Made by a program: the position numbers and the translations under genes. From positions 2,260,267 through 2,324,266 of the forward strand of contig NZ_CP030287.1 in the NCBI RefSeq assembly GCF_003287935.1: a stretch of DNA of 64,000 nt. The letters are read 5' to 3'. This document shows, in pieces, positions 7,325 to 35,513 of the stretch. The notes beneath the pieces are model-generated. The model did no database searches. It worked only from the letters and a program-made list of their open reading frames with translations, and was not told the DNA's origin. Within the stretch, counting starts at the first letter, position 1. Each line of letters begins with the position of its first letter. This DNA is from Streptomyces sp. ICC1 (GTDB lineage: Bacteria > Actinomycetota > Actinomycetes > Streptomycetales > Streptomycetaceae).

Positions 7325-7512
7325 CAGGGGTAGCGGCGGATGAGGATGGCCCATTCCTCGTCGTGCCGGCCCGGGACGAGGCGTCCGGCGCTCTCCCACC
7401 GCTGCGCGAGTTCGGTGAAGATCGGCTCCAGCCCGGGGCGGTGAACCGTTTCTCCGCCGCCCGGCCGGACGCCGGTGGCGGGGGTGAGCCGCCTCGTCGT
7501 CGTGGTGGTCAT
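7312..7512 (-). CDS. Small conserved-looking hypothetical protein
   Basis: A 66-residue soluble protein with a basic, flexible N-terminus and a structured C-terminal half (LFTELAQRWESAGRL-like, then VPGRHDEEWAILI and a PWPRP end). The ending resembles small streptomycete proteins I have seen in stress and regulatory clusters, but I cannot name a family. Convergent with the phosphatase. Confidence 0.65.
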   Translation of the reverse strand: MTTTTTRRLTPATGVRPGGGETVHRPGLEPIFTELAQRWESAGRLVPGRHDEEWAILIRRYPWPRP

Positions 7513-13170: not shown

Positions 13171-13292
13171 TGTTCAACCGCGGCAGCGTTGCGGTTGAAC
13201 ACGTTGACCCGGATCGGGAGGTCCGGGCATTCTTCTGCCATCGCCGGGGAAAACCCCGGTGGGAATGACCAGGCAGATGGGAAGTGAATCTC
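13171..13292 (+). promoter_or_regulatory. Palindromic operator, promoter and leader hairpin, precursor copy 1
   Basis: A perfect 11-bp inverted repeat (13171-13181 and 13191-13201, core GTTCAAC..GTTGAAC) is followed directly by TTGACC (13204-13209) and, after 18 bases, CATTCT (13228-13233), a plausible -35/-10 pair. The leader holds CCGGGG-AAAA-CCCCGG (13244-13259) and a GGGAAG ribosome site. The same ordered elements recur before copy 2, so the arrangement is selected. Confidence 0.65.
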
Positions 13293-13379
13293 ATGGAGAA
13301 CGTCGACTTCGACGACATCGAGTTCATCGAGACCGCCGAGGAGCTCCTCGCGACCTCGTACTACAAGAACATCCAGTAA
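13293..13379 (+). CDS. Candidate RiPP precursor peptide, copy 1
   Basis: A 28-residue peptide starting MENVDFDDIE and ending SYYKNIQ, then TAA. The acidic, helix-prone first 20 residues (FDDIEFIETAEELLA) look like a leader. The polar C-terminus with two Tyr, Lys, Asn and Gln looks like a core. Copy 2 at 14218 encodes exactly the same 28 residues with four synonymous changes (ACC/ACG, CTC/CTG, GCG/GCC, TCG/TCC) and no replacement, which is strong evidence for translation and selection. The ribosome site GGGAAGTGAATCTC is shared. It is a separate transcription unit with its own terminator. The tandem oxygenases downstream of copy 2 are the likely modifying enzymes; the cleavage site cannot be read from two identical copies. 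Confidence 0.85.
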   Translation: MENVDFDDIEFIETAEELLATSYYKNIQ

Positions 13380-13406
13380 TTCCTGTTCTTGCAGTAATGC
13401 CTGCGT

Positions 13407-13439
13407 GAAGGGCGGCGTCGATTCAGACGCCGCCCCTTC
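13407..13439 (+). terminator. Terminator of precursor copy 1
   Basis: GGGCGGCGTC (13410-13419) pairs with GACGCCGCCC (13426-13435) around a 6-nt loop, with flanking GAA/TTC extending the stem over one bulge. It ends the precursor as a monocistronic message. Confidence 0.7.
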
Positions 13440-13490
13440 GCGGTTGTGTGGACCGATGCGTTGGATCAGTGGGATGGGTGGTGTTCCGTG

Positions 13491-14009
13491 ATGGTGGGAT
13501 CGGTTGGATCGGATTGGGAAGAGCGTGTCGGTGCTCTCTGGGAGCAGCTGGACGAGCATGAGGAAGAGAAATTCATCGCCGCGGTGGAAGCGCTCGTCGG
13601 CGAGCTGCCCGCCGGGGACGCGCGGGGCCCCTTCGAGCGGGCCTGCGCCTATGACTCGACCGGGTACAGCGACCTGGCCGCGCCCCTGTACCGCGAGGCG
13701 CTCGCCGCCGGGCTGACCGGGGTGCGGCGCCGGCGTGCCGTCATCCAGCTGGCCAGCTCGATCCGCAACCTCGGCCGGGCGGCCGAGAGCGCAGCCCTGC
13801 TGGAGGACGAGCGAGCGGCGGGGACGGACCTCCTCGACGACGCCGTGACCGGGTTCCTCGCCCTCGCGCTGGCCGACACCGGGCGGGAGCGCGAGGCGCT
13901 GTCGCTCGCGCTCGTCGCGCTCGCCCGCCACCTCCCGCGCTACAACCGCTCGCTCGCCAACTACGCCCGCGAGCTGTCCGAGCCGGAGACCGGCCCGACC
14001 CCCTCCTGA
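13491..14009 (+). CDS. Tetratricopeptide-repeat protein between the precursors
   Basis: 172 residues from ATG 13491; GTG 13446 is possible but has no ribosome site. It is entirely helical with TPR-like helix pairs (YSDLAAPLYREALAAG, then RRRAVIQLASSIRNLGRAAESAALLEDE, then ALADTGREREALSLALVALARHL). It resembles the TPR_5-type small actinobacterial family. Such folds bind peptides. Its placement between two identical precursor genes suggests a chaperone or leader-binding role, which is inference. Confidence 0.75.
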   Translation: MVGSVGSDWEERVGALWEQLDEHEEEKFIAAVEALVGELPAGDARGPFERACAYDSTGYSDLAAPLYREALAAGLTGVRRRRAVIQLASSIRNLGRAAESAALLEDERAAGTDLLDDAVTGFLALALADTGREREALSLALVALARHLPRYNRSLANYARELSEPETGPTPS

Positions 14010-14095
14010 GGAGCCCGCGGGCGCCCGGGCGCCCGCTCCGCTGCCCCCGTGCGGCCCCGACCCACCGGTCGGGGCCGCTCTGCTTTTGCCGGTCC

Positions 14096-14217
14096 GTTCA
14101 ACCGCGTTGGCGTGCAGTTGAACGCCGTTGACCCTTTTCCCGGGTGCGGGCATTCTCATTTCACCGGCCGGGAAAACCCGGACGGTGGGAGAAGGAAACC
14201 GAAGGGAAGTGAATCTC
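14096..14217 (+). promoter_or_regulatory. Palindromic operator, promoter and leader hairpin, precursor copy 2
   Basis: GTTCAAC (14096-14102) and GTTGAAC (14117-14123) form the same palindrome as in copy 1 with a 14-nt spacer. TTGACC (14128-14133) and CATTCT (14151-14156) follow at 17 bases. The leader hairpin CCGGG-AAAA-CCCGG (14168-14181) is one base pair shorter than in copy 1 but has the same tetraloop, so structure is kept while sequence drifts. Confidence 0.65.
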
Positions 14218-14304
14218 ATGGAGAACGTCGACTTCGACGACATCGAGTTCATCGAGACGGCCGAGGAGCTGCTCGCCACCTCCTACTACAAGAACATCCA
14301 GTAA
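14218..14304 (+). CDS. Candidate RiPP precursor peptide, copy 2
   Basis: The encoded 28 residues are identical to copy 1 (start MENVDFDDIE, end SYYKNIQ). The ribosome site and 14 bases before the ATG are also identical. It lies 88 bases upstream of the first cupin oxygenase, separated by a strong hairpin at 14332-14355. Partial read-through would give low enzyme and high precursor expression, as in many RiPP operons. No Cys or Trp is present, and Ser/Thr are few, so lanthionine, thioether or azoline chemistry is not suggested. Confidence 0.85.
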   Translation: MENVDFDDIEFIETAEELLATSYYKNIQ

Positions 14305-14331
14305 TTGTTCTTGAAGTAGCGCTGTGGCGGA

Positions 14332-14355
14332 GGGCGGCGCCGGAAGGCGCCGCCC
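14332..14355 (+). terminator. Attenuator-like hairpin between precursor 2 and the oxygenases
   Basis: GGGCGGCGCC (14332-14341) pairs perfectly with GGCGCCGCCC (14346-14355), loop GGAA. It lies 27 bases after the precursor stop. It is likely a partial terminator setting the ratio of peptide to enzyme. Confidence 0.65.
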
Positions 14356-14392
14356 CTCCCCCGGCCTGATTTTCTTTCGAGGAGAGCTCGGT

Positions 14393-15583
14393 ATGGCGAA
14401 CTACGCATTCGCAGATCTGGTGGGAGACGAGCAGGTCTTCTTCACCGAATACTTCAACAAGAAGCCCATGCTGCGGAAGAGCGCCGTGCCGGGGGACCCG
14501 CGCGACATCCTCTCGCACCGCAAACTGGACCAGCTGGTCAACCTGGAGGTCGTCCGGCCGCCCTACATCAAGGTCAACCTCAAGGGCAACGGCGTCCCCG
14601 AGCAGGGGTACACCCGCAACGTGGTCGTCCAGGGCCAGACCATCACCGACGTGGTCGACCCCGAGAAGATCTACGAGCTGTTCCGGGCCGGCGCGACCGT
14701 CACCTGGTGCTCGCTCAACCAGATCGTCCCGGAACTGCGCGACTTCACCCGCGTCATCAGCGAGCGCATGGCGGTGCGCACCGACTCGGTGGCGTTCCTG
14801 ACGCCCACCGGCAAGAAGGGCTACCCGCCGCACCACGACCCGGTCGACCTCTTCATCGTCCAGCTCGAGGGCACCAAGCACTGGAAGCTGTGGAACCCGC
14901 CGGCCGAGCGCCTCGGGGACAACGCCCAGTACACCCTCGAAGGACTGGGGGAGCCGGACATCGAGGTCTCGCTGCAGCCCGGCGACGTCCTCTACCTCCC
15001 CTACGGCACCCCGCACGCCGCGGCCGCCGAGGGCAAGGCCTCGCTGCACCTGTCCGTCATGATGCGCCCGCGCATGTGGAAGGACCTGCTGCGCCAGACC
15101 GTCGAGGAGCTCATCGCCGCCGACGAGTTCAATGCGTACCCCTACATCGGGGAACTGCGCTCGTCCGACGTGGAGACCGGCTTCGGCGAGAAGGTCGCCG
15201 CCCTCGCCGCGCGGCTGCAGACCGTGGCCGCCGGCGCAGAACTGGACCGCCTCGCCGACCTCGGCCGGCACATGGAGGGCAGCTCCGAGGGCCACACCTT
15301 CCAGTCCATCGCGGACATGGACGAACTCGGCCCGGACGCCCGCCTGCGGCGCGGCAGCGCGCCCCTGGAGTTCGGTGTCAGCGACAACGGCCGGACCCAG
15401 ATGACCGTCAACGGTCACAAGATCGCGGTACCCACACCGATCGCCGAAACCCTGGCCGCGCTCGGCCCGGACGCGTCGATCGCGGCGTCCCTCATCTTCC
15501 CCGGAGTGGACGCGCTCCGTTCGACGAAGGCCGCGCAAGGACTCACCCGCCTGGGTGTGTTCGAACTGGCCGCGGCCGGCTGA
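14393..15583 (+). CDS. Cupin/JmjC (ROX-like) Fe(II)/2OG oxygenase 1
   Basis: 396 residues from ATG 14393 with GAGGAGAG upstream. It is a cupin_4/JmjC-type protein of the ribosomal-oxygenase (YcfD/RoxA) class: N-terminal FTEYFNKKPMLRKS, the metal motif H147-x-D149 in GYPPHHDPVD and the third ligand H208 in LPYGTPHAA. A helical dimerisation part and a C-terminal winged-helix-like domain (from about 300) follow. Family members hydroxylate residues of proteins with iron, O2 and 2-oxoglutarate. The gene directly follows the precursor, so the SYYKNIQ segment is the expected substrate. Paralogous to the next gene. Confidence 0.88.
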   Translation: MANYAFADLVGDEQVFFTEYFNKKPMLRKSAVPGDPRDILSHRKLDQLVNLEVVRPPYIKVNLKGNGVPEQGYTRNVVVQGQTITDVVDPEKIYELFRAGATVTWCSLNQIVPELRDFTRVISERMAVRTDSVAFLTPTGKKGYPPHHDPVDLFIVQLEGTKHWKLWNPPAERLGDNAQYTLEGLGEPDIEVSLQPGDVLYLPYGTPHAAAAEGKASLHLSVMMRPRMWKDLLRQTVEELIAADEFNAYPYIGELRSSDVETGFGEKVAALAARLQTVAAGAELDRLADLGRHMEGSSEGHTFQSIADMDELGPDARLRRGSAPLEFGVSDNGRTQMTVNGHKIAVPTPIAETLAALGPDASIAASLIFPGVDALRSTKAAQGLTRLGVFELAAAG

Positions 15584-15682
15584 CGAGCTGCCGGTACCGG
15601 ACCTGTCCCGTCGCGGACCACCGGACCATCCCCCCGGTGGTCCGCGACGGGCGTCCCCGTGCACGACTGGAGGCAAGAGACG

Positions 15683-16993
15683 GTGGAGACGTACTCCTTC
15701 GAGGATTTCGTCGGCGACCGGGACGTGTTCCTCGCCGAGCATTTCGACAAGAAGCCGCTGCTGCGCAAGGGGGCACTGGCGGGCCGGCTCGACGGCCTCC
15801 CCTCCGTGCGGCAGCTCGACGACGTACTGGCCCTGGAGACGACTCCGCCCTCCTACCTCCGGGTGACCAAGGGCGGCAAAGGCGTGCCCAGCGGCGCCTA
15901 CACGCGGACGGTGGCGCGCGGAGCCGCGCTCGCCGAGGCGGTCAACCCGGAGAAGGTCTACGAGCTGTTCCGCTCGGGCTCCACCGTCACCTGGAACTCC
16001 CTGCACCACGTGCTGCCCTCGGCCCGCCGGCTGCTCGCGCCGTTCACCGACACCTTCGCCTGCGAGGGCGAAGTGGTCCTCTTCGTCACGCCCGCGCGCA
16101 ACGACGGCTTCTCCCCGCACCACGACTCGATCGACGTGTACGTCGTCCAGGTCGACGGCACCAAGACCTGGCGGGTGTGGGCCACCCCCGAGGTCCGCCG
16201 GGGCGACGAGGGCTCGTACACGCCCGAGGAGCTCGGCGAGCCCGTCATCGAGGTGACGCTGGCCCCCGGCGACGTGCTGTACGTGCCGCACGGCACCCCG
16301 CACGCGGCCGCCGCGAAGAGCGAGCTGTCCCTGCACCTGTCCGTCGGGGTCGAACCCCGGCGCTGGCGCGACCTGCTGAAGGACACCGTCGCGGCCGTGG
16401 TCGAGGACGAGGCCTTCCACGCCTTCCCGTACCTCGCCGACGGGGAGGACGGCACGGCCGCCGCCGGCCTGGGCCGGCAGATCGAACTCCTCCGGGACCG
16501 GCTCGCCCACCTGGAGCCCGTCTCGGAGGCCAAGCGCCTCGCACGGGTGGGGCGCGAGCGGTCCGGAGGCGGCCGCACCCGGGAGTTCGCCCGGCTGCAC
16601 GCCGTCGACGCGCTGACCACCGACTCGCTGGTGCGGCGCAGCGACGCCCCCGTGGAGATCGGCGACAGCGACGGGACGAAGACCGGGATCCGGGTGGGCG
16701 GGCGCCGGCTCGCGGTGCCCGACGCCGTCGCCCGTTCGCTGCGCGACCTCGACGGCGGGCGCCCGGTCGCCACCTCCGAGTTCTTCCCCGGCGTGGACCC
16801 CGCCCGCTCGCTGAGCGCGGCCCGGGGGCTGGCCCGGATCGGGGTCCTCGAAGCCGCCGAGCACGCCGTGTTCCCCGTACCGCGGGAGAACGGCCCACCG
16901 CCGGGCCAACCGGGCAACCCGAGCAGCCCGAGCAGCCCGACCAACCCGAGCGTCCCGCACACCGCCACCCACACCGACGACCAGGGGAAGTGA
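15683..16993 (+). CDS. Cupin/JmjC (ROX-like) Fe(II)/2OG oxygenase 2
   Basis: 436 residues from GTG 15683, where METYSFEDFVGDRD aligns with MANYAFADLVGDEQ of the first oxygenase; GGAGG lies nine bases upstream. Metal ligands are intact: H146-x-D148 (SPHHDSID) and H207 (PHGTPHAA). The domain plan is the same as oxygenase 1, but with a 35-residue Pro/Ser/Asn-rich C-terminal tail (QPGNPSSPSSPTNPS). Two diverged yet intact copies imply two oxidation steps or sites on the same peptide, or a heterodimer. The stop is nine bases before the MFS start. Confidence 0.88.
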   Translation: METYSFEDFVGDRDVFLAEHFDKKPLLRKGALAGRLDGLPSVRQLDDVLALETTPPSYLRVTKGGKGVPSGAYTRTVARGAALAEAVNPEKVYELFRSGSTVTWNSLHHVLPSARRLLAPFTDTFACEGEVVLFVTPARNDGFSPHHDSIDVYVVQVDGTKTWRVWATPEVRRGDEGSYTPEELGEPVIEVTLAPGDVLYVPHGTPHAAAAKSELSLHLSVGVEPRRWRDLLKDTVAAVVEDEAFHAFPYLADGEDGTAAAGLGRQIELLRDRLAHLEPVSEAKRLARVGRERSGGGRTREFARLHAVDALTTDSLVRRSDAPVEIGDSDGTKTGIRVGGRRLAVPDAVARSLRDLDGGRPVATSEFFPGVDPARSLSAARGLARIGVLEAAEHAVFPVPRENGPPPGQPGNPSSPSSPTNPSVPHTATHTDDQGK

Positions 16994-17001
16994 GCCACGA
17001 G

Positions 17002-18300
17002 ATGGCCATCGACACCCGAACTCCGGCCACCACCGAGGCCTCCCCGCCCCCCTCCCGGCGGGCCTGGCGCGAGGTGTACATCCTCGCCGGGATGCGCGGC
17101 CTGTCCTTCGCGGGCGACATCGCCGCCGAGACGGCCATCGCCCTCCAGCTCCAGGCCCAGGGCGCCGGCTCCTACGCCATCATGGCGCTGCTGCTGTCCG
17201 CGACCGTCCCGCCCGTCCTGCTGTCGCCGCTGACCGGCCGGTTCGCCGACCGCTTCGACAGCCGCAACCTCATCGTGGTCGTCGGCGCGCTGCAGGCCCT
17301 GATCTGCGTGGCCATGACGATCTGGACCTCGCCGGTGGTCCTCATCGGGCTCTCCGCGCTGCTGTCCTCCGGACTCGCCTTCACCCACCCGGTGTTCGGC
17401 GCCCTGCCCAGCGCGATCGTCGGCAAGGAGAACGTGCCGCGCGCCTCCTCGATCTCGCAGACCACCGCCATGGCGGGCATGGTCGCCGCGCCCGGCATCG
17501 CCGGCATCCTCATCGGCCGCTTCGGGATCTCCATCCCGCTGCTGATCGACGCCCTGAGCTTCGGGGCGGTCGTCGTCGGCGGACTGCTGATCAAGACCCG
17601 GCTGCACAAGGACCGGGGCTCCGCGAAGTCCGCCGCCGGGGACGGCGACGAACCCGCGAAGGCCCCGTACAAGGTGACGTCCGACCGCTTCCTGACCGCC
17701 GTGCTCATCCTCAGCGGCGCCGTGATGGCGGCCGCGAGCATCATCAACGTCCTCATCGTCTTCTACGTCCGCGAGGACTTCGGGGCCTCCGAGGAGACCT
17801 TCGGGCTGATCATGTCGGCCTGGATGCTGGGCCTGATCCCGGGCGGGATGCTGGTGCGCCGCGCGAAGAACCTGCGCCACGAGACCGTCCTGATCGGCAC
17901 GTTCGTGTGCATCGCCGTGGCCATCCTGGGCACGGGCCTCGCGCCGGGCGTCTGGTGGATCGTCCCCTTCTACGTCCTCGGCGGCATCGGCAACGGCGCC
18001 CAGGCCACCGTGACGCACATCCTGCTCAACGTCCGGGTCCCCGACACGCACCGCGGCCGCGCCTTCGCCGCGCTGGGCGCCGTCTCCAACACCGGTCCCG
18101 CCATCGGCTACGTGGTCGGCGGCGCGGCGATGACCCTGATGGCCCCGCGCTACGGGTTCCTCGCCGCCGGGGTGTTCTGCCTGATCGCGCTGGCCCTCTT
18201 CAGCGGGCGGGTCCTGAAGTCGGCCGACGCGGACCGGGCCGACGCGGACCGGGCCGACGCCGACCGGGCCGACGCGGGCCTCAAGGCGGAGACCGTCTGA
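17002..18300 (+). CDS. MFS exporter
   Basis: A 432-residue major facilitator with 12 predicted helices. ATG 17002 (ribosome site AGGGGAAG) is preferred to GTG 16990, which overlaps the oxygenase stop. The motif GRFADRFDSRNLI after helix 2 is motif A-like. It resembles MFS_3/enterobactin-exporter-type drug exporters. The C-terminus carries four tandem copies of a RADAD repeat (15-bp DNA repeat at about 18220-18270). It is translationally linked to the M13 peptidase (TGATG overlap). Likely exports the mature peptide or gives self-immunity. Confidence 0.88.
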   Translation: MAIDTRTPATTEASPPPSRRAWREVYILAGMRGLSFAGDIAAETAIALQLQAQGAGSYAIMALLLSATVPPVLLSPLTGRFADRFDSRNLIVVVGALQALICVAMTIWTSPVVLIGLSALLSSGLAFTHPVFGALPSAIVGKENVPRASSISQTTAMAGMVAAPGIAGILIGRFGISIPLLIDALSFGAVVVGGLLIKTRLHKDRGSAKSAAGDGDEPAKAPYKVTSDRFLTAVLILSGAVMAAASIINVLIVFYVREDFGASEETFGLIMSAWMLGLIPGGMLVRRAKNLRHETVLIGTFVCIAVAILGTGLAPGVWWIVPFYVLGGIGNGAQATVTHILLNVRVPDTHRGRAFAALGAVSNTGPAIGYVVGGAAMTLMAPRYGFLAAGVFCLIALALFSGRVLKSADADRADADRADADRADAGLKAETV

Positions 18301-20282
18301 TGACGGTGGTCTCGGAACCGGCCGCGGGCGCCCCCGCCCTCCCGGACGACGTGGAACTCGACCTCTCCGTACGACCCCAGGACGACTTCTACCGGTTCGT
18401 GAACGGGCACTGGACGGACCACCACGTCCTGCCCGCCCACCGGGCCGAGGCCACCACCCTGACCCTCCTGTCCGACCGGGCGGAGGCCGACGCGGAGGCC
18501 GTGATCCTGCGCGCGGCCTCCCGCGCCGGGTCCGCCGCCGACCCGGCCGGCCGCCGCATCGCCGCCCTGTACGCGAGCTTCATGGACGAGGACCGCATCG
18601 AGGACCTCGGCGCCGCCGGGGCTTTCGCCGCCGACCTCCGGGCGGTCGAAGCGGCCGCCACCCCGGCCGGACTCGCCGCGGTACTGGGCCGGCTGCAGGC
18701 CCAGGGCATCGGCGGGGCGGTGGACTTCACGGTCGCCGTGGACACCGCCGACGCCGACGGCTACGTCCTGGTCCTCTCCCAGGCCGGGCTCGGCCTGCCC
18801 GCCGCCGCCTACGGCGACGACCGGGACGGCGGGGAGCTGCGCGGGCGCTACCTCGGCCACCTCGCGGTGATGTGGGCGCACGCGGGACTCCCCGAGCCCG
18901 CCCGCGCGGCCGCCTCGGTCCTGGCGGCGGAGACCGGGCTCGCCGCCGGGCACACCGCGCCCCGGCCGGGCGCCGCGCCGCGACCGCTGTCGCTGACCGC
19001 CGCCGAACTGGCGTGCCGGGCCGGCGGGTTCCCGTGGGGGGCGTGGCTGGCCGCGCTGGGCGGCGTACCCCGGGAGGCGACCGTACGGATGCGCCAGCCG
19101 GGATTCCTCGACGCGCTCGACGCGTGGTGGACCGGGCACGGCCTGGACGAGCTCAAGCGGTGGGTGTGCTGGCGCTACGTGCACGAGATGGTGCCCTTCG
19201 GGCCGCGCCGGGTGTTCGCCGACAACTTCGCCTTCTACGGGCAGCTGCTCAACGGGTTCACCGAGCCGAGGCCGCGCCGCATCCGGGCCGTCTCCTTCGT
19301 CGAGACCTTCGCCGGCGACGCGGTGGGCGAGCGGTACGTCGCCGAACACCTGGCCCCGGGCACCGTGGCGGCCGTGCGCGAGCTGGCCGGGGAGCTGGCC
19401 GACGCCTACCGGCGGCGCCTGGAGCGGGCCGACTGGATGTCCCGGGCCACCCGGGACGCGGCCCTGGCCAAGCTCGACGCGATGGTGTTCGAGATCGGCG
19501 CCCCGCGCGGGAGCGCGGACGGCGCGGGCCCGGACCGCGAGCCGTTCGACCCGGCCGACCTGGCCGGCAACGTCAAGCGCGGACGGGCCCGGCGCATCGC
19601 CGGGGAACTGGCCCGCCTCGGCGGCCCCGTCGACCGCTCCGAGTGGAAGATCCACCCGCACCAGGTCACCGCGTACTACCGGCACGGGCTCAACCAGGTC
19701 GTCGTCCCCGCCGGACTGCTGCGGCCGCCTGTCTTCGACCCGGCGGGCGATCCGGCCCGCAACTTCGCGGTGCTCGGCTCGATCATCGGCCACGAGATGT
19801 CGCACGCCTTCGACAGCAAGGGCTCGCGCTACGACGGGCGGGGCCGGCTGCGCGACTGGTGGGCGCCGGCCGACCGGGCCGAATTCACCCGGCGCACCGC
19901 GCTCCTGGTCGCGCAGTACGACGGCTACGAGCCGGCCGGCCTGCCCGGACGGCGGGTCAGCGGCGCACGCACGGTCGGCGAGAACATGGCCGACATCGCC
20001 GGAGTCACCGTCGCCCTCGATGCGTTCGCCGCGCACGCGGGCGGCACCCCCGACACCGCCCGGACCAGGGAGTTCCTCCTGCACTGGGCCACGATGTGGC
20101 GGGCCCGGACCACCCCCGCCCGGCTCGCCGAGCGGCTCGCCTCGCCCCGGCACCCGCACCCGCCCGCCGAGTTCCGCTGCAACGGGGTCCTCGGCCACCT
20201 CGAAGCCTTCTACGAGGCGTTCGACGTGCGGCCCGGCGACGCGCTGTTCATCGACCCCGCTTCCCGCTTCTTCCTCCTGTGA
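18300..20282 (+). CDS. M13 family zinc metallopeptidase (neprilysin-like)
   Basis: 660 residues, starting at ATG 18300 within TGATG. Zinc site HEMSH at 498-502 and third ligand in ENMAD at 561-565 are intact. The substrate motif reads NFAFYGQLLNG and the C-terminus ends with FRCNGVLGHLEAFYEAFDV, as in PepO/neprilysin. There is no signal peptide or membrane helix, so it should act in the cytoplasm. M13 enzymes cut oligopeptides on the amino side of hydrophobic residues and fit only small substrates, so a 28-residue precursor or its leader is a reasonable target. Confidence 0.9.
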   Translation: MTVVSEPAAGAPALPDDVELDLSVRPQDDFYRFVNGHWTDHHVLPAHRAEATTLTLLSDRAEADAEAVILRAASRAGSAADPAGRRIAALYASFMDEDRIEDLGAAGAFAADLRAVEAAATPAGLAAVLGRLQAQGIGGAVDFTVAVDTADADGYVLVLSQAGLGLPAAAYGDDRDGGELRGRYLGHLAVMWAHAGLPEPARAAASVLAAETGLAAGHTAPRPGAAPRPLSLTAAELACRAGGFPWGAWLAALGGVPREATVRMRQPGFLDALDAWWTGHGLDELKRWVCWRYVHEMVPFGPRRVFADNFAFYGQLLNGFTEPRPRRIRAVSFVETFAGDAVGERYVAEHLAPGTVAAVRELAGELADAYRRRLERADWMSRATRDAALAKLDAMVFEIGAPRGSADGAGPDREPFDPADLAGNVKRGRARRIAGELARLGGPVDRSEWKIHPHQVTAYYRHGLNQVVVPAGLLRPPVFDPAGDPARNFAVLGSIIGHEMSHAFDSKGSRYDGRGRLRDWWAPADRAEFTRRTALLVAQYDGYEPAGLPGRRVSGARTVGENMADIAGVTVALDAFAAHAGGTPDTARTREFLLHWATMWRARTTPARLAERLASPRHPHPPAEFRCNGVLGHLEAFYEAFDVRPGDALFIDPASRFFLL

Positions 20283-20299
20283 CTCTGTGAGGCCACGCC

Positions 20300-22264
20300 A
20301 TGCTTCCTGCTGACATCGAGCTGCTGCCCGTGCTCGGGCCGCCCGCCCTCTCGCCCGACGGCCGCCACGTCGTCTTCGAGGTCACCCGCCCCGTCCTGGA
20401 GGCGGACGACTACACGACCGAGCTGCTGATCGCGGACACCGCCGGGGCGAGCGCGCCGCGCCGCCTCACCCAGGGCGCCTACGACGGCTGCCCGGCCTTC
20501 TCGCCCGACGGCCGCTTCCTCGCCTTCCAGCGCCCGGGCGCGCACGGCCGGGCCCAGATCCACCTCCTCCCGATGGACGGCGCCGGCGAGGCCTTCCCGG
20601 TCACCGACCACCCGATGGGCGCGGGCCAGCCCGTGTGGAGCCCCGACTCCACCCGGATCGCCTACACCAGTCGGATCCCCGAAGCGGGCCGTTACCAGGG
20701 CCCGGCCGAGGCGGAGGCACCGCGCCGGATCACCACGCTGCTCTACCAGATGGACGGGTTCGGCTACACGGCCGACCGGCCCCGGCAGGTCTTCGTGACG
20801 GACCCGTTCGCTCCGGCGGCCCCCGCCGTCCAGGTCACCGAAGGCCCGTACGACCACATGGACCTGGCGTGGAGCCCCGCCGGCGACCAGCTGGTCTTCG
20901 TCTGCGCCCGGCACGAGGAGGCGGGCGACGACTCCCGCAACGACATCTGGGCGTCGGCGCCCGACGGGAGCGGCCTGCGGCCCCTGACGCACGGCGGGAT
21001 GTACCTGTTCACCCCGCGCTTCGCCGCCGACGGAGCCTCCGTGGTCTTCGTCGGCTCCGAGCTCGACAAGTTCAACCACTCCTGCGCCACCGCCACCTAC
21101 GGCCTGTGGACGGTTCCGGTCAGCGCCCCCGGCGCCCTGCTCCCCGCCGCCGACGGGTCCGGCGCCCCGCGCCGGCTCACCGGCGGCGCCCACCACCTCA
21201 GCTTCGCCAGCCAGATGATCCGCCCGGCCGCCGACGGCGTGTACTTCGCGGGCGACCGGCGCGGCGAGGTCAACCTGGTCCTCGTCCCCTACGACGGCTC
21301 CGAGCCCGCGCCGGTCATCACCGGCCCCCGCCAGGTCAACGGCTACGCGGTCGCCGAGACCCCGGCGGGCCCCGTCATCGCGGCCGTGGTCACCAGCGCC
21401 GCGAGCGCCGGCGACCTGGTGGTGCTGAGCGGCGGCACCGAGCGCACGCTGACCTCCTACGGACGCGAGCTGACCGAGCGGACCTCCCTGCTGCCGATGC
21501 GGGAGTTCACCGCGACGGCGCCCGACGGCTACGAGCTCCAGGGCTGGGTGGTGCGCCCCGAGGGCCCCGGCCCGCACCCGGTGGTCTTCCAGGTCAAGGG
21601 CGGCCCCTTCACCCAGTGGGGCCACACCCTCAACGGCCCGGCCGCCTTCGACGAGGCGCAGGTGTACGCGGGCGCCGGCTACGCGGTCGTGCTCGGCAAC
21701 CCGCGCGGCACCTCCGGATACGGCGCCGAGCACGGCGCGTACGTACGGGACGACCTGCCCGGCAAGTCCGCCGTCGACCTCCTCGCCCTGCTGGACGCCG
21801 CGCTGGCCCAGCCCGAACTGGACGCCTCCCGCGTCGGGGTGATGGGCGGCTCCTTCGGCGGCTACATGGCGGCCTGGTTCAACGCCCACCACGGCGACCG
21901 CTTCAAGGCGATGATCGGCGAGCGCGGCCTGTACGCCATCGACAGCTACGCGGCCACCAGCGACGACGGCGTCGACCTCGCGGTCGCCCTGTACGGGGCG
22001 GACCGCGAAGGCTGGGCGCGCCAGTCCCCGCTCACCTACGCGGACCGGATGAGCACCCCGATGCTGATCATCCAGTCCGAGGAGGACCGGCACTGCCCGC
22101 CGGAGCAGGCGCAGCGCCTGTTCACCGAGCTGCGCATGCGCGGGGTCCCCGCCGAGATGCTCCTCTTCCCCGGCGAGGGGCACGACATGTCCCGCTCCGG
22201 ACTGCCCAGCCACCGCCTCGCCCGCTTCGCGGCGGTCCTGGAGTGGTGGGGGCGGCACCTGTGA
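20300..22264 (+). CDS. S9 family prolyl oligopeptidase-like serine peptidase
   Basis: 654 residues: a seven-blade WD40-like beta-propeller (about 1-390; SPDGRHVVFEV and SPDGRFLAFQ repeats), then an alpha/beta hydrolase domain. The nucleophile lies in MGGSFGGYMA (Ser518) and the catalytic His in GEGHDMSR (H628). No signal peptide. S9 enzymes act only on short peptides admitted through the propeller. It lies in the operon after M13 and may trim exopeptidase-style after leader removal. Confidence 0.9.
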   Translation: MLPADIELLPVLGPPALSPDGRHVVFEVTRPVLEADDYTTELLIADTAGASAPRRLTQGAYDGCPAFSPDGRFLAFQRPGAHGRAQIHLLPMDGAGEAFPVTDHPMGAGQPVWSPDSTRIAYTSRIPEAGRYQGPAEAEAPRRITTLLYQMDGFGYTADRPRQVFVTDPFAPAAPAVQVTEGPYDHMDLAWSPAGDQLVFVCARHEEAGDDSRNDIWASAPDGSGLRPLTHGGMYLFTPRFAADGASVVFVGSELDKFNHSCATATYGLWTVPVSAPGALLPAADGSGAPRRLTGGAHHLSFASQMIRPAADGVYFAGDRRGEVNLVLVPYDGSEPAPVITGPRQVNGYAVAETPAGPVIAAVVTSAASAGDLVVLSGGTERTLTSYGRELTERTSLLPMREFTATAPDGYELQGWVVRPEGPGPHPVVFQVKGGPFTQWGHTLNGPAAFDEAQVYAGAGYAVVLGNPRGTSGYGAEHGAYVRDDLPGKSAVDLLALLDAALAQPELDASRVGVMGGSFGGYMAAWFNAHHGDRFKAMIGERGLYAIDSYAATSDDGVDLAVALYGADREGWARQSPLTYADRMSTPMLIIQSEEDRHCPPEQAQRLFTELRMRGVPAEMLLFPGEGHDMSRSGLPSHRLARFAAVLEWWGRHL

Positions 22265-22323
22265 GCGGCGTCGTCGACCTGGCCGTACTCGAAGACCTCC
22301 GAACGGACCGGAAGGACACTGCC

Positions 22324-23703
22324 ATGACCAGCACGCTCGCCCAGCGGGCCGGCGGCCTGCGCGCCGACATCGACGGCGACCGGCTGCTGCGGCGCATCGC
22401 CCGGCTCGGCCGGATCGGGCTCGACCCCGAGACGGGCGGGATCACCCGCGAGGGCTTCGGAGCGGCCGACCGCGAGGCGCGCGCGTACCTGATGGACGAG
22501 GCGCGCGACGCGGGCCTCGTCCCGTCCGTGGACGCGGCGGGCAACATCGTCATCCGGCCGCGCCACACCCCGTACGGCGAGGGGCGCCAGGCCCTGATGA
22601 TGGGCTCGCACCTCGACACCGTGGTCAACGCGGGCCGCCTCGACGGCGCGTACGGGGTGCTCGCCGCGCTGGAGGTGCTGCAGACCTTCGAGGAGTGCGG
22701 GATCGAATCCCCCTACGAGCCCGTGGCCGTGGCCTTCGCCAACGAGGAGGGTGCGCTCTTCCCGCAGCCCTTCTGGGGCTCGATGGCGGTCGCCGGCCGC
22801 CTCGCGGGGCTGCCGCGCGAACCCCGCGACCACCAGGGGCGCCGGCTGCGCGAGGAGCTGCGCCTGGCCGGCGGGGACCTCGACGCGCTGGGCAGCGCGT
22901 GCTGGCCGCACGGATCGATCGCCGCCTACCTCGAACTGCACGTGGAGCAGGGCCCGGTGCTGGAGCGCAGCGGCCGCCGGATCGGAGTCGTCGACGCCAT
23001 CACCGGCCGCACCGTGCTGACCCTGGAGGTGCGCGGCGCCGCCGGGCACTCCGGGACCAGCCCGATGAAGGGCCGGCGCGACGCGATGGCCGCGGCGGCC
23101 CGGGTGGTGCTGGCCGCCGAGCACGTCGCCGGCGAGCGCGGGCTGTGCCGGGTGGCGACGGTCGGACGGATCGACCCCCACCCGAACACCCCGAACACGA
23201 TCGCCGGATCGGTCCGGATGACCGTGGACCTGCGGGACACGGACGTGTGGAAGGCCGCGGCCGCCGAGGAGACCCTGCGGCGGATGCTGGACGCGATCGC
23301 GCGGAGCACCGGCACCGAGATCGAGGTGGTCGCCGAGACCCGCTCCGACCCGGTCTCCACGAGCGAGGTGCTGCGCGCCGCGATCGAGCGGAGCGCGGAC
23401 GAACTGGGCCTGGCGCACGAGGTGCTGCCCAGCGGCGCCGGACACGACGCGCAGATGGTCGCGGACATCGCGCCCATCGGCATGATCTTCGTGCCGAGCC
23501 TGGGCGGCATCAGCCACGTGCCCGAGGAGGACACGGCTCCCGAGGACCTCGTCGCCGGGGCCCGCGTGCTCTTCCGTACGGCGCTGCGCACCATCGGGAT
23601 CAGCCCGCAGGCGCGGCCGGCGGAGCAGGACCTGGCGCCGTCAAGGCCGTCACCGTCGCGGCCGTCGCGGCCGTCGAACGAGCTCAATACCACCGGGAGT
23701 TGA
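22324..23703 (+). CDS. M20-type amidohydrolase (hydantoinase/carbamoylase family)
   Basis: 459 residues from ATG 22324 with GGAAGGA upstream. Metal motifs of the allantoate amidohydrolase/N-carbamoylase group are present: GSHLDTVVNAGRLDG, NEEGALF, LELHVEQGP, and GHDAQMVA near the C-terminus with PSLGGISHVPEE. Family reactions hydrolyse N-carbamoyl or amide bonds of small amino-acid derivatives. In this operon it could act on a peptide-derived amino acid or a carbamoyl/acyl cap. The C-terminus ends in a low-complexity RPSPSRPSRPS tail. Confidence 0.85.
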   Translation: MTSTLAQRAGGLRADIDGDRLLRRIARLGRIGLDPETGGITREGFGAADREARAYLMDEARDAGLVPSVDAAGNIVIRPRHTPYGEGRQALMMGSHLDTVVNAGRLDGAYGVLAALEVLQTFEECGIESPYEPVAVAFANEEGALFPQPFWGSMAVAGRLAGLPREPRDHQGRRLREELRLAGGDLDALGSACWPHGSIAAYLELHVEQGPVLERSGRRIGVVDAITGRTVLTLEVRGAAGHSGTSPMKGRRDAMAAAARVVLAAEHVAGERGLCRVATVGRIDPHPNTPNTIAGSVRMTVDLRDTDVWKAAAAEETLRRMLDAIARSTGTEIEVVAETRSDPVSTSEVLRAAIERSADELGLAHEVLPSGAGHDAQMVADIAPIGMIFVPSLGGISHVPEEDTAPEDLVAGARVLFRTALRTIGISPQARPAEQDLAPSRPSPSRPSRPSNELNTTGS

Positions 23704-23709
23704 GGAGCC

Positions 23710-24288
23710 ATGGAGACACTGGTCAAGAAGAGCGAGCGCATCGCGGTGTTCTGCGGCGCGCGGCCCGGGGTCCGTCAGGACCACGTGGACTTCGCGCACG
23801 GCTTCGGCCGGGCGCTCGCCGGGCGCGGTCTCGACCTGGTCTACGGCGCCGGCGGCGTCGGGGTCATGGGTGCCGTCGCGGACGGGGTGCTGAGCGGGGG
23901 CGGGGCGGTGACCGGGGTCGTGCCGCGCGCGCTGCACGAGCGGGAGCGGGCCGACCGGGCGCGCGGGGCGATTTTCATCGTGCGGTCCATGCACGAGCGC
24001 AAGGCGCTCATGTACCGGCTGTCGAACGGCTTCGCCGTGCTGCCGGGCGGGATCGGGACGCTGGACGAGCTGATGGAGGTGGCCACGTGGAACCAGCTCT
24101 CCCTGATGGAGAAGCCGATCGTGGTGGTCAACCACGCCGGCTTCTACGACCCGATGCTCGCGATGCTCGACCACCTCGTGGCCGAGGGGTTCCTGACGGC
24201 GGCCGAGCGCCGGCTGATCCGGTGCGCGGACAGTGCCGAGGAGGCCCTGGACCTGCTGGGCGCGCCCGGGGTGCTGGCCGCGGCATGA
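23710..24288 (+). CDS. LOG family protein (TIGR00730)
   Basis: 192 residues from ATG 23710 with GAGGAG upstream, six bases after the previous stop. It has the Rossmann-like lysine-decarboxylase-lookalike fold, FCGARPG at the N-terminus and the diagnostic PGGIGTLDELMEV nucleotide motif. LOG enzymes are N6-substituted AMP phosphoribohydrolases releasing cytokinin-type bases. In this gene set no prenyl transferase is visible, so its substrate may be another nucleotide. Last gene of the run of plus-strand genes from 14393. Confidence 0.9.
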   Translation: METLVKKSERIAVFCGARPGVRQDHVDFAHGFGRALAGRGLDLVYGAGGVGVMGAVADGVLSGGGAVTGVVPRALHERERADRARGAIFIVRSMHERKALMYRLSNGFAVLPGGIGTLDELMEVATWNQLSLMEKPIVVVNHAGFYDPMLAMLDHLVAEGFLTAAERRLIRCADSAEEALDLLGAPGVLAAA

Positions 24289-24317: not shown

Positions 24318-25316
24318 CTATTCGGGGGCGGTCGGCAGGTAGCCGCGCTGCACCGCGTGGACCCCGGCCTGGAAGCGGCTCTGCGCGCCGAGGTAGGTCA
24401 TCAGCCCGGAGGCGATGCGCCGGGCGGTGCGCGAGGAGACGCCCAGGCGGTGGGCGATGGTCTCGTCCGTGCAGCCCTGCGCGAGCAGCTTCAGCGCCTC
24501 GGCCTGCTGGCGGGTGAGCTCGCCCGGATCCGGCCTGGCCCGGGTGTCGAGGCAGTCGCCGGACTGCCAGACGCTCTCGAAGAGCGTGTACAAGGTGGCC
24601 ACCATCCCCTGGGAGGTGACCTCGACCGCGCCGGCCGCGGTGTTGCCGGTGTCCGCCGCGATGATCGCCGAGGTGCGGTCGTAGATGATCATCCGGTTGG
24701 GCAGCGAGGGGACGGTACGGACCTGCGAGCCCTGGGCGACGAGCCAGCGCGCGTACTCCATGGTCTGCAGACAGCCGCGGATGGAGTCCAGGTAGACCGT
24801 GCGCATCTGCACGCCGCGCTCCAGCAACTGCTGGTTGAGCGGTCTGGAGGCGTTCATGTTCTCCGCGGTCTGGGGGCCGCCGGGCGCGAAGGTCAGGAGC
24901 TCCTGGGTGACCTGGCCGCGCAGGTTGGCGAGGTGGTCGCGGATGGAGTCGAGCCCGTCGAGGTAGCGCACCCCCGGGTCGACGGCGCTGCCCGTGTCCC
25001 GGCCGTCGTACTCCAGGATGAGCTGCGCCGCGGCCGCCCGGCTCGCCTCCAGCCGCTGCTGGCGGCTCGCGAGGTCCGCCTGCTGGCGGGCGAGCAGGAT
25101 CTCCATGCCGACGTGCGGGCTGACCGCGTGCAGCCGGCTGCCGCCCTCCGTGGAGGCGCGCACGAGCGCCATCTCGCTGAGCCGGTCCAGGGCGGCGCGG
25201 ACCGCGTCCGGCGTCAGATCGAGCTGACGGCTCAGATCTGCGACGTCCCGGGGTTTGGCGAGAATTCCCCGGTAGACGGATTCGGCGACTGCGTCGAGGC
25301 CGAGGAGATCAAGCAT
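24318..25316 (-). CDS. TrmB-like/LuxR-type transcriptional regulator
   Basis: 332 residues from ATG 25316 (GGAG ten bases upstream; TTG 25325 is the alternative). N-terminal winged helix of TrmB type (LLGLDAVAESVYRGIL..DVADLSRQLDLTPDAV). A central effector region with PLNQQLLERGVQMRTVYLDS follows. The C-terminal LuxR HTH reads LTRQQAEALKLLAQGCTDETIAHRLGVSSRTARRIASGLM. This architecture is frequent beside streptomycete peptide clusters. It is transcribed toward the operon end and is a candidate binder of the GTTCAAC palindromes. Confidence 0.85.
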   Translation of the reverse strand: MLDLLGLDAVAESVYRGILAKPRDVADLSRQLDLTPDAVRAALDRLSEMALVRASTEGGSRLHAVSPHVGMEILLARQQADLASRQQRLEASRAAAAQLILEYDGRDTGSAVDPGVRYLDGLDSIRDHLANLRGQVTQELLTFAPGGPQTAENMNASRPLNQQLLERGVQMRTVYLDSIRGCLQTMEYARWLVAQGSQVRTVPSLPNRMIIYDRTSAIIAADTGNTAAGAVEVTSQGMVATLYTLFESVWQSGDCLDTRARPDPGELTRQQAEALKLLAQGCTDETIAHRLGVSSRTARRIASGLMTYLGAQSRFQAGVHAVQRGYLPTAPE

Positions 25317-25523
25317 CGATGGCAACTCCGGTTCAGAGCCCGGATCCCGCGGGGATTTCAGGCACTGGTGGGGGCACTGGGCTGCGTAATTGCCCTGACG
25401 GTACGGGTCGATCGGACCCTCGGCAAGACGGCATCCGGAATCTCTCGGATCACGTTCCCCAGGGCCTTTTCCTGACCCTCGTTTTCGGAAAACTCATTCC
25501 ACTACGGATCCGGACTCCCTCCC

Positions 25524-25832
25524 ATGTATCTGGTTCACGTCCACCTGCGGCCCCCGCGCTCCGGCGCCCGCCTGCCCGCGCCGACGGCGGCGGCCATCGC
25601 CCGCAGCGCGGCGGGGCACGACGGCCTGGTCCACGTCAGCGTCCACCCGGATCCCGAAGCGGCTCCCGTGGTCGGGCTGTACGTACGGGCTCCGTCGCTG
25701 GCCGCGGCGGAAGCGGCCGCCCGGCGGCTGTGGCTGCACGCGGCCTCGGCGCACTCATCGCTGGGGGAGTGGGAACTGGAGCGGGCCGAGGTGCCGCTGC
25801 TGCCCGGCAGCGACCCGTGGAGCACGATCTGA
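25524..25832 (+). CDS. Conserved-looking hypothetical protein, 102 residues
   Basis: From ATG 25524 (MYLVHVHLRPP). The beta-alpha-beta pattern with VHVSVHPDPEAAPVVGLYVRAPSLAAAEAAARRLW suggests a small ferredoxin-like alpha/beta fold. No strong ribosome site. It ends 180 bases before the small secreted peptide. It occurs, as far as I recall, next to similar regulators in other streptomycetes; function unknown. Confidence 0.65.
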   Translation: MYLVHVHLRPPRSGARLPAPTAAAIARSAAGHDGLVHVSVHPDPEAAPVVGLYVRAPSLAAAEAAARRLWLHAASAHSSLGEWELERAEVPLLPGSDPWSTI

Positions 25833-26238: not shown

Positions 26239-27312
26239 ATGGACGCAGAGAGCGCCGACCACCTGATCAGGTTCCGCGACCGGGGATATCTCGACCAGCC
26301 CGTGGAAAGCGTGGCCACGGACCGGATCACGGCCGGATTCTCGCCCCGCACGGGCGGCGAGGACGGGGAGTACGCGAAGACCCTCGCGGAAGCCGACGGC
26401 GAATTGCCGCCCATCCTGGTCCACCTGCAGACCATGCGCGTGATCGACGGCGCCCACCGGCTCCGCGCCGCGGCCCTCCGTGGCGAAACCCACATCCTCG
26501 TACGGTACTTCGACGGAGACCAGGGCGAGGCCGAGCTCCTGGCGGTCGCGGCCAACGTCACCCACGGGCGGCCCCTGACCGCCGCCGAGCGCACCGCCGC
26601 CGCGGGACGCGTCTTCGCCGCCCACCCCCACTGGTCGGACCGCGCGGTCGCGGCCGTCACCGGACTCTCCGCCCGGAGGATCTCCCAGCTCCGCAAGGGC
26701 ACCGCCGCGGCCGAGACCGGCCACCGCGTCGGCCGCGACGGCCGGGCCCGGCCCGTCGATCCCTCCCGCGGCCGTGAACTGGCCGGCGAACTGCTGCGCA
26801 GCAACCCCGGCGCCTCGCTGCGCCGGATCGCAGCCGAGGCCGGGCTGTCCCCGGCGACCGTGGCCGACGTACGCGACCGGATCCGGCGCGGGGAGGATCC
26901 CGTACCGGCCCGTCGCACGGACGCCGCGACCGTCCGCCGGCGCCCTTCCGCCGCCTCCGCGTCCCCTTCTTCTCCGGCCCCGTTCCCGGCCGCCGACCCG
27001 ATCTCGCTCGCCGCCCGGCGCGGCGCCTCTCCGCGCCGCCCCGCCGCCGACCAGCAGCACGCCCCCGACCGGCTGCTGCGCATCTTCGAATCGCTGCGCC
27101 GGGACCCCTCCCTGCGGCTGAGCGAGTCCGGCCGCGACGTGCTGCGGATGCTCGGGGCCTGCGCGCTGGTCGCCCAGCACCGGGAGAAGATCGCGGCGAG
27201 CCTGCCGACGCACTGCAAGGAGCCGATGGCCCAGCTCGTCCAGGGCTACGCGGGTCTGTGGGGGCTGCTGGCCGACGAACTGGCCTGCGCGGGGGCGGCC
27301 GAGGCCTCGTGA
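26239..27312 (+). CDS. ParB-like nuclease-domain transcriptional regulator
   Basis: 357 residues from ATG 26239 with GAGGGGAAG upstream. N-terminal ParB/Sulfiredoxin-like domain ([23 protein letters not shown], then [20 protein letters not shown]), then an HTH ([22 protein letters not shown]), a second HTH-like unit ([21 protein letters not shown]), a low-complexity linker and a C-terminal helical part. The layout matches StrR/NovG-type pathway activators of antibiotic clusters. It probably activates part of this locus. Confidence 0.85.
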
Positions 27313-27436: not shown

Positions 27437-28933
27437 ATGTGGGACATCATCAGGCTCACCGCCGCCGAGACCGCCGGGAAGATCGCCTCCGGGGAGCTCA
27501 CCGCGGTACGGGTCACCGAGGCGCATCTGGCCCGGATCGAGCAGACCGACGAGAAGGTACGCGCCTTCCTGCACGTGGACCGCGAGGGAGCCCTCGCACA
27601 GGCGGCCGCCGTCGACGCCCGGCGGGCAGCCGGCGCGCGGCTCGGCCCGCTGGCCGGCGTACCGCTCGCCCTCAAGGACGCCTTCACCACCGTCGGCATC
27701 CCCACGACCTGCGGCTCGAAGATCCTCGAGGGGTGGATCCCGCCCTACGACGCCACGTTGACGCGCAAGCTGAAGGAGGCCGGCGTCGTCATCCTCGGCA
27801 AGACCAACATGGACGAGTTCGCCATGGGGTCCTCCACCGAGAACAGCGCCTACGGGCCGACGGGCAACCCCTGGGACCTCAACCGGGTCCCCGGCGGCTC
27901 CGGCGGCGGCTCGGCGGCCGCGCTGGCCGCCTTCCAGGCACCGCTCGCCGTCGGCACGGACACCGGCGGCTCGATCCGCCAGCCCGCCGCGCTCACCGGC
28001 ACCGTCGGGGTGAAGCCCACGTACGGCGGGGTCTCCCGCTACGGGCTGGTGTCCTACTCCTCCTCCCTCGACCAGGGCGGCCCGTGCGCCCGCACCGTCC
28101 TGGACACCGCGCTCCTGCACGAGGTGATCGCCGGCCACGACCCGCTCGACTCCACCTCCATCGACGCCCCGGTCCCGCCGGTCGTCGAGGCGGCCCGGTC
28201 CGGATCGGTCGAGGGCATGCGGGTGGGCGTCGTCAAGCAGTTCGCCGGCGAGGGCTACCAGGATGGCGTGATCTTGAGGTTCCGGGAGTCGGTGGAACTG
28301 CTGGAGGAGCTCGGTGCCGAGATCGTGGAGCTGGACTGCCCGTCCTTCGACCTCGCGTTGGCCGCCTACTACCTGATCGCCCCCTCCGAGGCCTCCTCCA
28401 ACCTCGCCCGCTTCGACGCCCTGCGCTACGGCCTGCGCCTCGGCGACGACACCGCGCTGTCCGCCGAGGAGGTCACCTCGCTGACCCGCGGGGCCGGCTT
28501 CGGACCGGAGGTCAAGCGCCGGATCATCCTCGGCACGTACGCGCTCAGTTCCGGCTACTACGACGCGTACTACGGCTCCGCCCAGAAGGTCCGCACGCTC
28601 ATCATGCGGGACTTCGACCGGGCGTTCACCGAGGTGGACGTGATCGTCTCCCCGACGATGCCGACCACCGCCTTCCCGATCGGCGAGCGGGTCGACGACC
28701 CGCTCGCCATGTACCTCGCCGACCTGTGCACCATCCCGACCAACCTGGCCGGCAACTGCGCCATGTCGCTGCCCTGCGGCCTGGCCCCGCGCGACGGCCT
28801 CCCGGTCGGACTGCAGATCATCGCCCCGGCCATGAAGGACGACCGGCTGTACAAGGTCGGCGCCGCCGTCGAGGCGGCCTTCGTCCGGCGCTGGGGCCGG
28901 CCGCTGCTCGACGAGGCCCCGTCACTCGCCTGA
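27437..28933 (+). CDS. GatA-like amidase, orphan paralogue
   Basis: 498 residues, full length for GatA. The Ser-cisSer-Lys triad is intact: Lys80 (PLALKDAF), Ser155 (PGGSGGGSA), Ser179 (TDTGGSIRQ). It reads almost like the housekeeping glutamyl-tRNA(Gln) amidotransferase subunit A, but gatC and gatB, normally flanking, are absent here. The small gene after it is not GatC-like. It may be a resistance duplicate, or an amidase using glutamine or another amide for a tailoring step. ATG 27437 follows AAGGAAG. Confidence 0.88.
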
Positions 28934-28954
28934 CCCACCAGGAGGATGCCCGCC

Positions 28955-29230
28955 ATGACCGTCATGACCACCGCACACGTCCGCCAGATCGAAGCCCTGC
29001 TCTCCCACGACATATCCGGTGTCGTCGACGCGGTGGTCACCACCTCCCGCGACGAGGCCGGGGCGCTCGCCTTCCACCTCGTGGTCGGCCCGCCCGACCG
29101 CCCGCGGGAGTGCGACCGCATCGAGTTCACCCTCGATCCGGAGCACGCCCGGGCGCTCCTCGCGGGCGGGCCCGGGCGGCCGGCGCCGGTGCCCTGCCGG
29201 GTCGGAGTCGAGTTCGGGGCGGCCCGCTGA
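28955..29230 (+). CDS. Hypothetical protein following the GatA paralogue
   Basis: 91 residues from ATG 28955, with AGGAGG nine bases upstream; ATG 28946 is too close to the ribosome site. Mixed alpha/beta, soluble (IEALLSHDISGVVDAVVTTSRDE..LAFHLVVGP..CDRIEFTLDPEHARALLAG). Only 21 bases from the GatA stop, so co-transcribed. No family recognised. Confidence 0.65.
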   Translation: MTVMTTAHVRQIEALLSHDISGVVDAVVTTSRDEAGALAFHLVVGPPDRPRECDRIEFTLDPEHARALLAGGPGRPAPVPCRVGVEFGAAR

Positions 29231-35471: not shown

Positions 35472-35513
35472 TCCACTCCGCAAGACCCGCTGTCAACCAC
35501 TAAGCGGCGGCTG

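Follow-up and report, generated by a model that had tools for sequence, protein, structure and literature searches.

We analyzed a window of 64,000 nucleotides from Streptomyces sp. ICC1 (contig NZ_CP030287.1, positions 2,260,267 to 2,324,266), in which two genes for the same 28-residue peptide lie beside a pair of genes, cup1 and cup2, for oxygenases of the ribosomal oxygenase (ROX) type. We read this locus as a new family of ribosomally synthesized and post-translationally modified peptides (RiPPs), in which the peptide would be oxygenated near its C terminus, trimmed, and exported, with GatA, the glutaminase subunit of GatCAB, as its inferred target; drawing on sequence comparison and on analogy with known systems, we give this reading a probability of roughly 0.6. 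An earlier note on this DNA had described the peptides and oxygenases as a candidate RiPP system reaching from 13171 to 24288. That extent proved too short, as regulators, a second gatA, and an open reading frame (ORF) of 93 amino acids are conserved with the cluster and carry it to about 29227 (Table 1). Missed at that time were the second gatA, StrR-type repeats upstream of the peptide genes, a ParB/StrR-like regulator, and a domain in the oxygenase that resembles RiPP recognition elements (RREs). These, in particular the GatA copy, which suggests a target, are what the present analysis adds.

The twin precursor genes encode an identical product, MENVDFDDIEFIETAEELLATSYYKNIQ, and their coding sequences differ at 4 of 84 bases, all synonymously, as had been noted before. 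Their start codons (ATG at 13293 and 14218) are 925 bp apart, GGGAAGTGAATCTC precedes the ATG in both, and the upstream regions of the two genes are alike. A search of the whole genome (one contig of 9.03 Mb) matched the peptide twice, both times in the cluster (E value 2.2e-13). Precursors of the family have 27 to 29 residues; their N-terminal part, [FYV][DE]DIEFIET..., is nearly invariant, and they end in [SA]Y[YH][KTV]NIQ. Across nine aligned variants, M1, E2, F6, D8 to T14, L18, A20, T21, Y23, and N26 to Q28 are invariant, and in two further variants F6 is replaced by V or Y. The SYYKNIQ end reported earlier is correct for the window and is one allele of several, the others being SYYTNIQ, SYYVNIQ, and AYHVNIQ; what remains invariant is Y-x-x-N-I-Q. 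Streptomyces bauhiniae (L007) has two precursor genes (at 3997 and 13507) with slightly different leaders, about 9.5 kb apart. In the draft genome G060, neither precursor gene (8860-8970 and 9770-9875 of locus L004) has the usual in-frame ATG: one lacks the codon altogether, and the other has it in the wrong frame; cluster decay or an assembly error are possible causes.

The position of the twin peptides next to the oxygenases is not due to chance, and the cluster is a conserved unit. A search for the peptide beside homologous cupins, the check proposed in the earlier note, found it at 15 of the 15 examined loci with a cup1 relative of at least 60% identity, with the in-frame ATG intact at 14. 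This count was made after removal of duplicates, and most of the ~45 cupins of at least 60% identity recovered in the cup1 search, including sequences from Streptacidiphilus (79%) and a metagenome-assembled genome of Streptosporangiaceae (64%), lie outside these opened loci. A scan of genome contigs with the first cupin returned seven loci, all seven with the peptide sequence. Of 392 Streptomyces genomes, seven encode the peptide, and these are the same genomes that have a close first cupin (E ≤1.4e-160). Only two others match cup1 below 1e-60 (2.6e-92 and 2.9e-85); these are distant cupins at 49% (G095) and 39% (G289) identity, and the peptide motif, the only precursor type sought, was not found in 19.9 kb at these loci. 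A family-level scan of 297 genomes gave four with the peptide, one of them the Kitasatospora genome of locus L002, and a class-level scan of 394 genomes with cup1 returned the window's genome alone at an E value of 1e-60 or better. Cup1 also matched 125 plasmid records, five at no less than 60% identity. Two of these five belong to genomes already counted, and the three new ones (NBC_00503, S. yangpuensis, and S. lavendulae BP39) all have the peptide. The plasmid records that carry the cluster span 178 to 410 kb, and the four that were opened are all linear; given these relatives on linear plasmid records, the cluster is accessory.

By family assignment, cup1 and cup2 are Fe(II)/2-oxoglutarate enzymes. 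Both match PF08007, and the complete HxD...H metal sites claimed previously are borne out: H147, D149, K162, and H208 of cup1 are invariant in an alignment of 80 sequences, cup2 not among them, and in cup2 the motif PHHDS...HGTPH was read by eye. We take K162 to be the lysine that binds 2-oxoglutarate. In structure models, made for cup1, the C-terminal winged helix resembles both ROX enzymes and RREs, and the combination of an HxD...H site with a catalytic cupin and a C-terminal winged helix is the hallmark of the ROX/JmjC_2 family. Identity to solved ROX-type chains is 17 to 22% by structural alignment. Cup1 and cup2 differ from the known members (YcfD, NO66, and MINA53; PF08007) in that their genes form a pair next to that of a conserved 28-residue peptide in a biosynthetic cluster, and their substrate is presumed to be this peptide rather than a ribosomal protein. 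Since their relatives are named as ribosomal-protein hydroxylases, and since regulators and gamma-butyrolactone genes lie nearby, one could also suppose that the peptide has a signaling or regulatory role and that the oxygenases act elsewhere, for example on a ribosomal protein. We consider this quite improbable, because the cupin pair is present in every genome found with the peptide, the cluster is accessory (as in the five plasmid records above), and no secretion signal was seen on the peptide by eye. In one lineage (L037, 12082-15988; L131, 15959-19723), the first cupin is preceded by a carbamoyltransferase-like gene and followed by a mycothiol-S-transferase/DinB-like gene.

A short encoded precursor conserved together with dedicated modifying enzymes beside it is the usual mark of a RiPP cluster. 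A scan with hidden Markov models (HMMs) of the genes at 13.3 to 32.5 kb, like the annotation of the ortholog region, revealed none of the class-defining enzymes of lanthipeptides, YcaO, lasso, or radical SAM products, in agreement with the earlier note. Its claim of a new system holds as far as a conserved RiPP-type cluster based on a peptide and a ROX-type oxygenase pair is concerned, but JmjC oxygenases in RiPP clusters have precedent. BipG, BpmG, and PbsQ are described as the JmjC oxygenases of biphenomycin-type RiPPs (bip, bpm, and pbs), and BipG and PbsQ were shown to hydroxylate ornithine (PMC12707348, PMC12257519). These systems resemble ours in having a JmjC/cupin hydroxylase (BipG, PbsQ) that acts on a ribosomal precursor and in the presence of a major facilitator superfamily (MFS) gene. 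As portrayed in the relevant passages, however, their clusters hold an MNIO, a B12 radical SAM enzyme, an arginase, and an FRF-type core, none of which is found among the genes scanned here or in the annotated ortholog region, and the core here is SYYKNIQ, which places the peptide outside that group. PF08007 proteins fused to an RRE-like domain have also been reported, with bacterial homologs in RiPP-like contexts (PMC12710340), but the section on these RRE-JmjC proteins names no precursor, cluster, or organism like the present one. According to a passage in PMC12636437 citing Xia et al. 2025, an alpha-ketoglutarate-dependent RiPP enzyme crosslinks Cys and Tyr; there too a 2-oxoglutarate enzyme modifies a RiPP precursor, whereas our peptide contains no Cys. 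The strings SYYKNIQ, SYYVNIQ, SYYTNIQ, YYVNIQ, and DDIEFIET are absent from the PMC literature searched, and a literature search on JmjC/cupin or 2-oxoglutarate RiPPs gave, among the matches listed, the biphenomycin and RRE papers and no description of this family.

By analogy with known RiPPs, the N-terminal part of the precursor would serve as a leader that the oxygenases hold with the winged-helix, RRE-like domain at their C terminus. Each oxygenase may then oxygenate one core residue, for which the invariant Tyr, the next Tyr/His, Asn, and Gln are candidates; any choice among these sites is a guess. Action of the oxygenases on SYYKNIQ with beta-hydroxylation, as first suggested, is plausible. 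The M13, S9, and perhaps M20 enzymes, as cytosolic proteins, would cut off the leader, and the MFS protein would export the short peptide. The genes for these proteins were identified through Pfam matches and, together with both oxygenases and the TIGR00730 gene, all lie on the + strand, which upholds the single direction described before. These same genes leave room for another design, in which the peptide is a scaffold from which one or two modified C-terminal residues (Asn, Ile, Gln) are released as an antimetabolite while the M13, S9, and M20 enzymes degrade the remainder. The pearlin and 3-thiaglutamate pathways are models for such a peptide-scaffold route, and three peptidase/amidohydrolase genes with an MFS gene, the invariant NIQ terminus, and the suitability of a glutamine analogue for a GatA target would all agree with it. 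We nevertheless think it somewhat unlikely, given that the SYY stretch, too, hardly varies, which points to its being part of the product, and that none of the genes scanned appends amino acids.

Inverted repeats with the spacing of StrR boxes lie before the precursor genes. The perfect repeat upstream of precursor gene 1, GTTCAACCG-N11-CGGTTGAAC, is the window's only match to this pattern with as many as 3 mismatches allowed, where 0.04 would be expected; a second, GTTCAACCG-N10-CAGTTGAAC, lies upstream of gene 2. Both can be compared with the StrR consensus GTTCGActG(N)11CagTcGAAc (PMC8306873). A survey of 19 precursor genes (L130 to L132 fall outside it, and L003 offers only ~50 bp before the peptide) found related repeats, starting 103 to 279 bp ahead of the DDIEFIET codons, for 17 genes when at least 14 of the 18 arm bases had to match and for 13 genes when at least 16 had to, both being raw counts with no shuffled control. 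No StrR-box-like repeat was found before the second peptide gene of L007. The ParB/StrR-like regulator of the cluster has only weak helix-turn-helix matches in Pfam, with no ParB family among them, and presumably resembles StrR. Its gene is present in the window's genome (G000) and in G082, G208, G060, G116, G171, G377, Kitasatospora (49% identity), and L007 (40%). Based on these sequence patterns, we propose that this protein binds the StrR-box-like repeats, and it would be an activator that reads GTTCAACYG/CRGTTGAAC. MocR-type regulators (GntR/aminotransferase-like, by eye) lie near the StrR-like gene in several clusters (L049, 6872-8401; L038, ~5796-7382), and in G060 one sits between the StrR-like gene and the 93-amino-acid ORF, the position of gatA in other clusters.

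The proposed target derives from the second gatA. In a survey of 199 Streptomyces genomes, with up to seven candidates scored per genome, GatA was found at an E value of 1e-160 or better in 197, and two copies were found only in G000 and G082, both of which carry the cluster. With the cluster in 5 of the 199, the association of the two is significant (Fisher P of 0.0005). The other gatA of G000 has gatC and gatB alongside (locations of gatB rest on an HMM search). Over all cluster-bearing genomes, the second GatA is present in 5 of 12. It adjoins the ParB/StrR-like gene in G000, G082, and G208; Kitasatospora has an extra gatC-gatA-gatB between its StrR-like gene and the LOG/M20 genes; and in G764 the copy is on a separate contig with the 93-amino-acid ORF, so that its link to the cluster is presumed. 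In Kitasatospora, genes for a deaminase, a Rieske oxygenase, and a nitroreductase (L124, 9861-12055) separate the StrR-like gene from the extra gatCAB.

The Lys and Ser motifs of GatA, which we take to be catalytic, are kept in 17 of 17 aligned sequences. V151, L186, Y207, and M408 are common to all five cluster GatAs, and the full set is found in none of the 41 further GatAs from actinobacteria that were compared, of which 12 are the housekeeping copies in the cluster-bearing genomes and 29 come from the class; residues 151 and 186 are 4 and 7 sequence positions from Ser155 and Ser179. An essential gene that is duplicated at a cluster but seldom in other genomes is the pattern of self-resistance by target duplication, seen here in 5 of the 12 genomes only. 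The second GatA is best read as an insensitive, self-resistant copy of the target, with its catalytic motifs kept and residues near them altered. The product would then probably be aimed at GatCAB, perhaps by imitating glutamine in the pocket of GatA, and the spare GatA (in Kitasatospora, an entire spare gatCAB) would protect the producer.

Weighing against this reading is that seven of the 12 cluster-bearing genomes have no second GatA. Six of these have intact V-type precursors, and the seventh is G060, with its damaged precursor starts. Divided by precursor, the second GatA is present in 5/5 genomes with K- or T-ended peptides and intact starts, absent from G060, the sixth genome of the K/T type, and present in 0/6 with V-ended peptides, a split that was noticed post hoc. 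The missing copies would also fit a RiPP cluster in which GatA has a biosynthetic role, as an amidase that acts on the peptide, or travels as a passenger with the neighboring gamma-butyrolactone genes; GatA resembles many amidases, and the 93-amino-acid ORF, an SDR, a cytochrome P450, and AfsA lie directly beyond gatA in G000, G082, and G208. We regard this explanation as rather unlikely, since the cluster GatA is still 88% identical to the other GatA and retains the Lys and Ser motifs, Kitasatospora carries the full gatC-gatA-gatB that a spare target complex would predict, and the same four residues come together again in a cluster copy that is closely related to the Kitasatospora housekeeping gene.

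This last copy is sister to that housekeeping gene (support 1.0), with 30 residue differences between them, and it matches the other four cluster GatAs at 5 of the 7 positions where these share a residue that none of the 12 housekeeping copies has (hypergeometric P of 1e-5, for placement alone). Codons 193 to 215 are 98.6% identical to the housekeeping gene, with F207Y the sole difference, and these flanks make an import of codon 207 from another cluster copy by gene conversion unlikely. T408M arises from one base change, and the stretch around it is 90% identical. Codons 141 to 160, 182 to 192, and 401 to 420 are 87, 85, and 90% identical to the housekeeping gene, and gene conversion is a possible source of residues 151, 186, and 408; because identity between the two copies ranges from 85 to 100% by segment, exchange between them may blur their history. 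On this comparison, the four residues were gained or kept, whichever history holds.

Synthetic inhibitors of GatCAB exist: aspartycin and glutamycin mimic the 3′ end of aminoacyl-tRNA (PMC4307249). They have the proposed target in common with our peptide, but both are synthetic, not gene-cluster peptides, and the passage that describes them names synthetic GatCAB inhibitors only. No report of GatCAB as a natural-product target or of gatA self-resistance was among the matches listed in our literature search, judged by titles and abstract starts, and a term search of a review of translation-targeting RiPPs found no mention of amidotransferase or GatCAB.

Table 1. Features of the peptide-oxygenase cluster, in coordinates of the window
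Feature	Position	Strand	Match or remark
StrR-box-like inverted repeat, perfect	13172..13200	+	Ends 92 bp before start codon of precursor gene 1
Precursor peptide gene 1 (28 amino acids)	13293..13379, stop included	+	
TPR_5 protein between precursor genes	13446..14009	+	PF12688, E 1.8e-46; not in every cluster; also in G082, L001, L002, L004, L005
Second StrR-box-like repeat	14096..14123	+	Upstream of precursor gene 2
Precursor peptide gene 2	14218..14304, stop included	+	Product identical to that of gene 1
cup1, first JmjC_2/ROX oxygenase	14393..15583	+	PF08007, E 3.3e-26; catalytic cupin and C-terminal winged helix, RRE-like (residues ~313-396)
cup2, second JmjC_2/ROX oxygenase	15659..16993	+	PF08007, E 1.6e-25; 44% identical to cup1
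MFS exporter	17002..18300	+	PF07690, E 1.7e-37
M13 family metallopeptidase	18300..20282	+	PF05649/PF01431; signal peptide not seen by eye
S9 family (prolyl oligopeptidase-type) peptidase	20300..22264	+	PF00326, E 1.8e-39; signal peptide not seen by eye
M20/hydantoinase-carbamoylase-type amidohydrolase	22324..23703	+	PF01546; TIGR01879 above cut-off
TIGR00730 (LOG-type) protein	23710..24288	+	
Helix-turn-helix regulator, LuxR-type C terminus, conserved	24318..25325	-	PF00196
102-amino-acid ORF conserved with cluster	25524..25832	+	No Pfam match at E 0.01
ParB/StrR-like regulator	26239..27312	+	NBC_00435 ortholog annotated "ParB N-terminal domain-containing protein"
Second gatA (498 amino acids), proposed self-resistance copy	27437..28933	+	TIGR00132 above cut-off; 88% identical to the genome's other GatA
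93-amino-acid ORF, edge of several clusters	28946..29227	+	

Beyond the cluster, the gene upstream of the peptides (~12.0 to 13.1 kb) has an ortholog annotated as an NAD-dependent epimerase. At the other end, genes for an SDR, a cytochrome P450, and an AfsA/ScbA-type gamma-butyrolactone synthase adjoin the cluster (29267-32486), likewise in G082 and G208, and ScbA/ScbR genes also adjoin the cluster of NBC_00503. A P450 conserved with the precursor would be expected of P450-crosslinked RiPPs such as aminopyruvatide. The P450 here (30046-31299), common to G000, G082, and G208, was not found in the stretches searched of G060, G116, G171, and G377, and its match to ApyO is weak, far below the cut-off. 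Farther along (~33475-47208), we noticed by eye genes that resemble those for an AMP-dependent ligase, an HpaB-type flavin hydroxylase and its reductase, a chorismate mutase, a class II DAHP synthase, and a prephenate dehydrogenase, possibly a neighboring tyrosine-derived pathway. In NBC_00503, YcaO, MFS, GNAT, and DUF885 genes (L130, 11133-16817) lie directly upstream of the cluster copy.

Taken at its fullest, our reading would make this the first ribosomal natural product to inhibit GatCAB, a 2-oxoglutarate-oxygenated, glutamine-ended peptide in the glutaminase site of GatA, from which a spare GatA or GatCAB protects the producer, and at the same time the first RiPP family defined by paired relatives of ribosomal oxygenases with the winged helix as the leader-recognition element. 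We advance this combined claim tentatively, at somewhat less than even odds. If true, it would add a RiPP family built on ROX-type oxygenases and, by way of a winged helix common to both, connect peptide natural products with a family of protein-modifying enzymes, and it would name as a target GatCAB, on which many bacteria depend for their Gln-tRNA.

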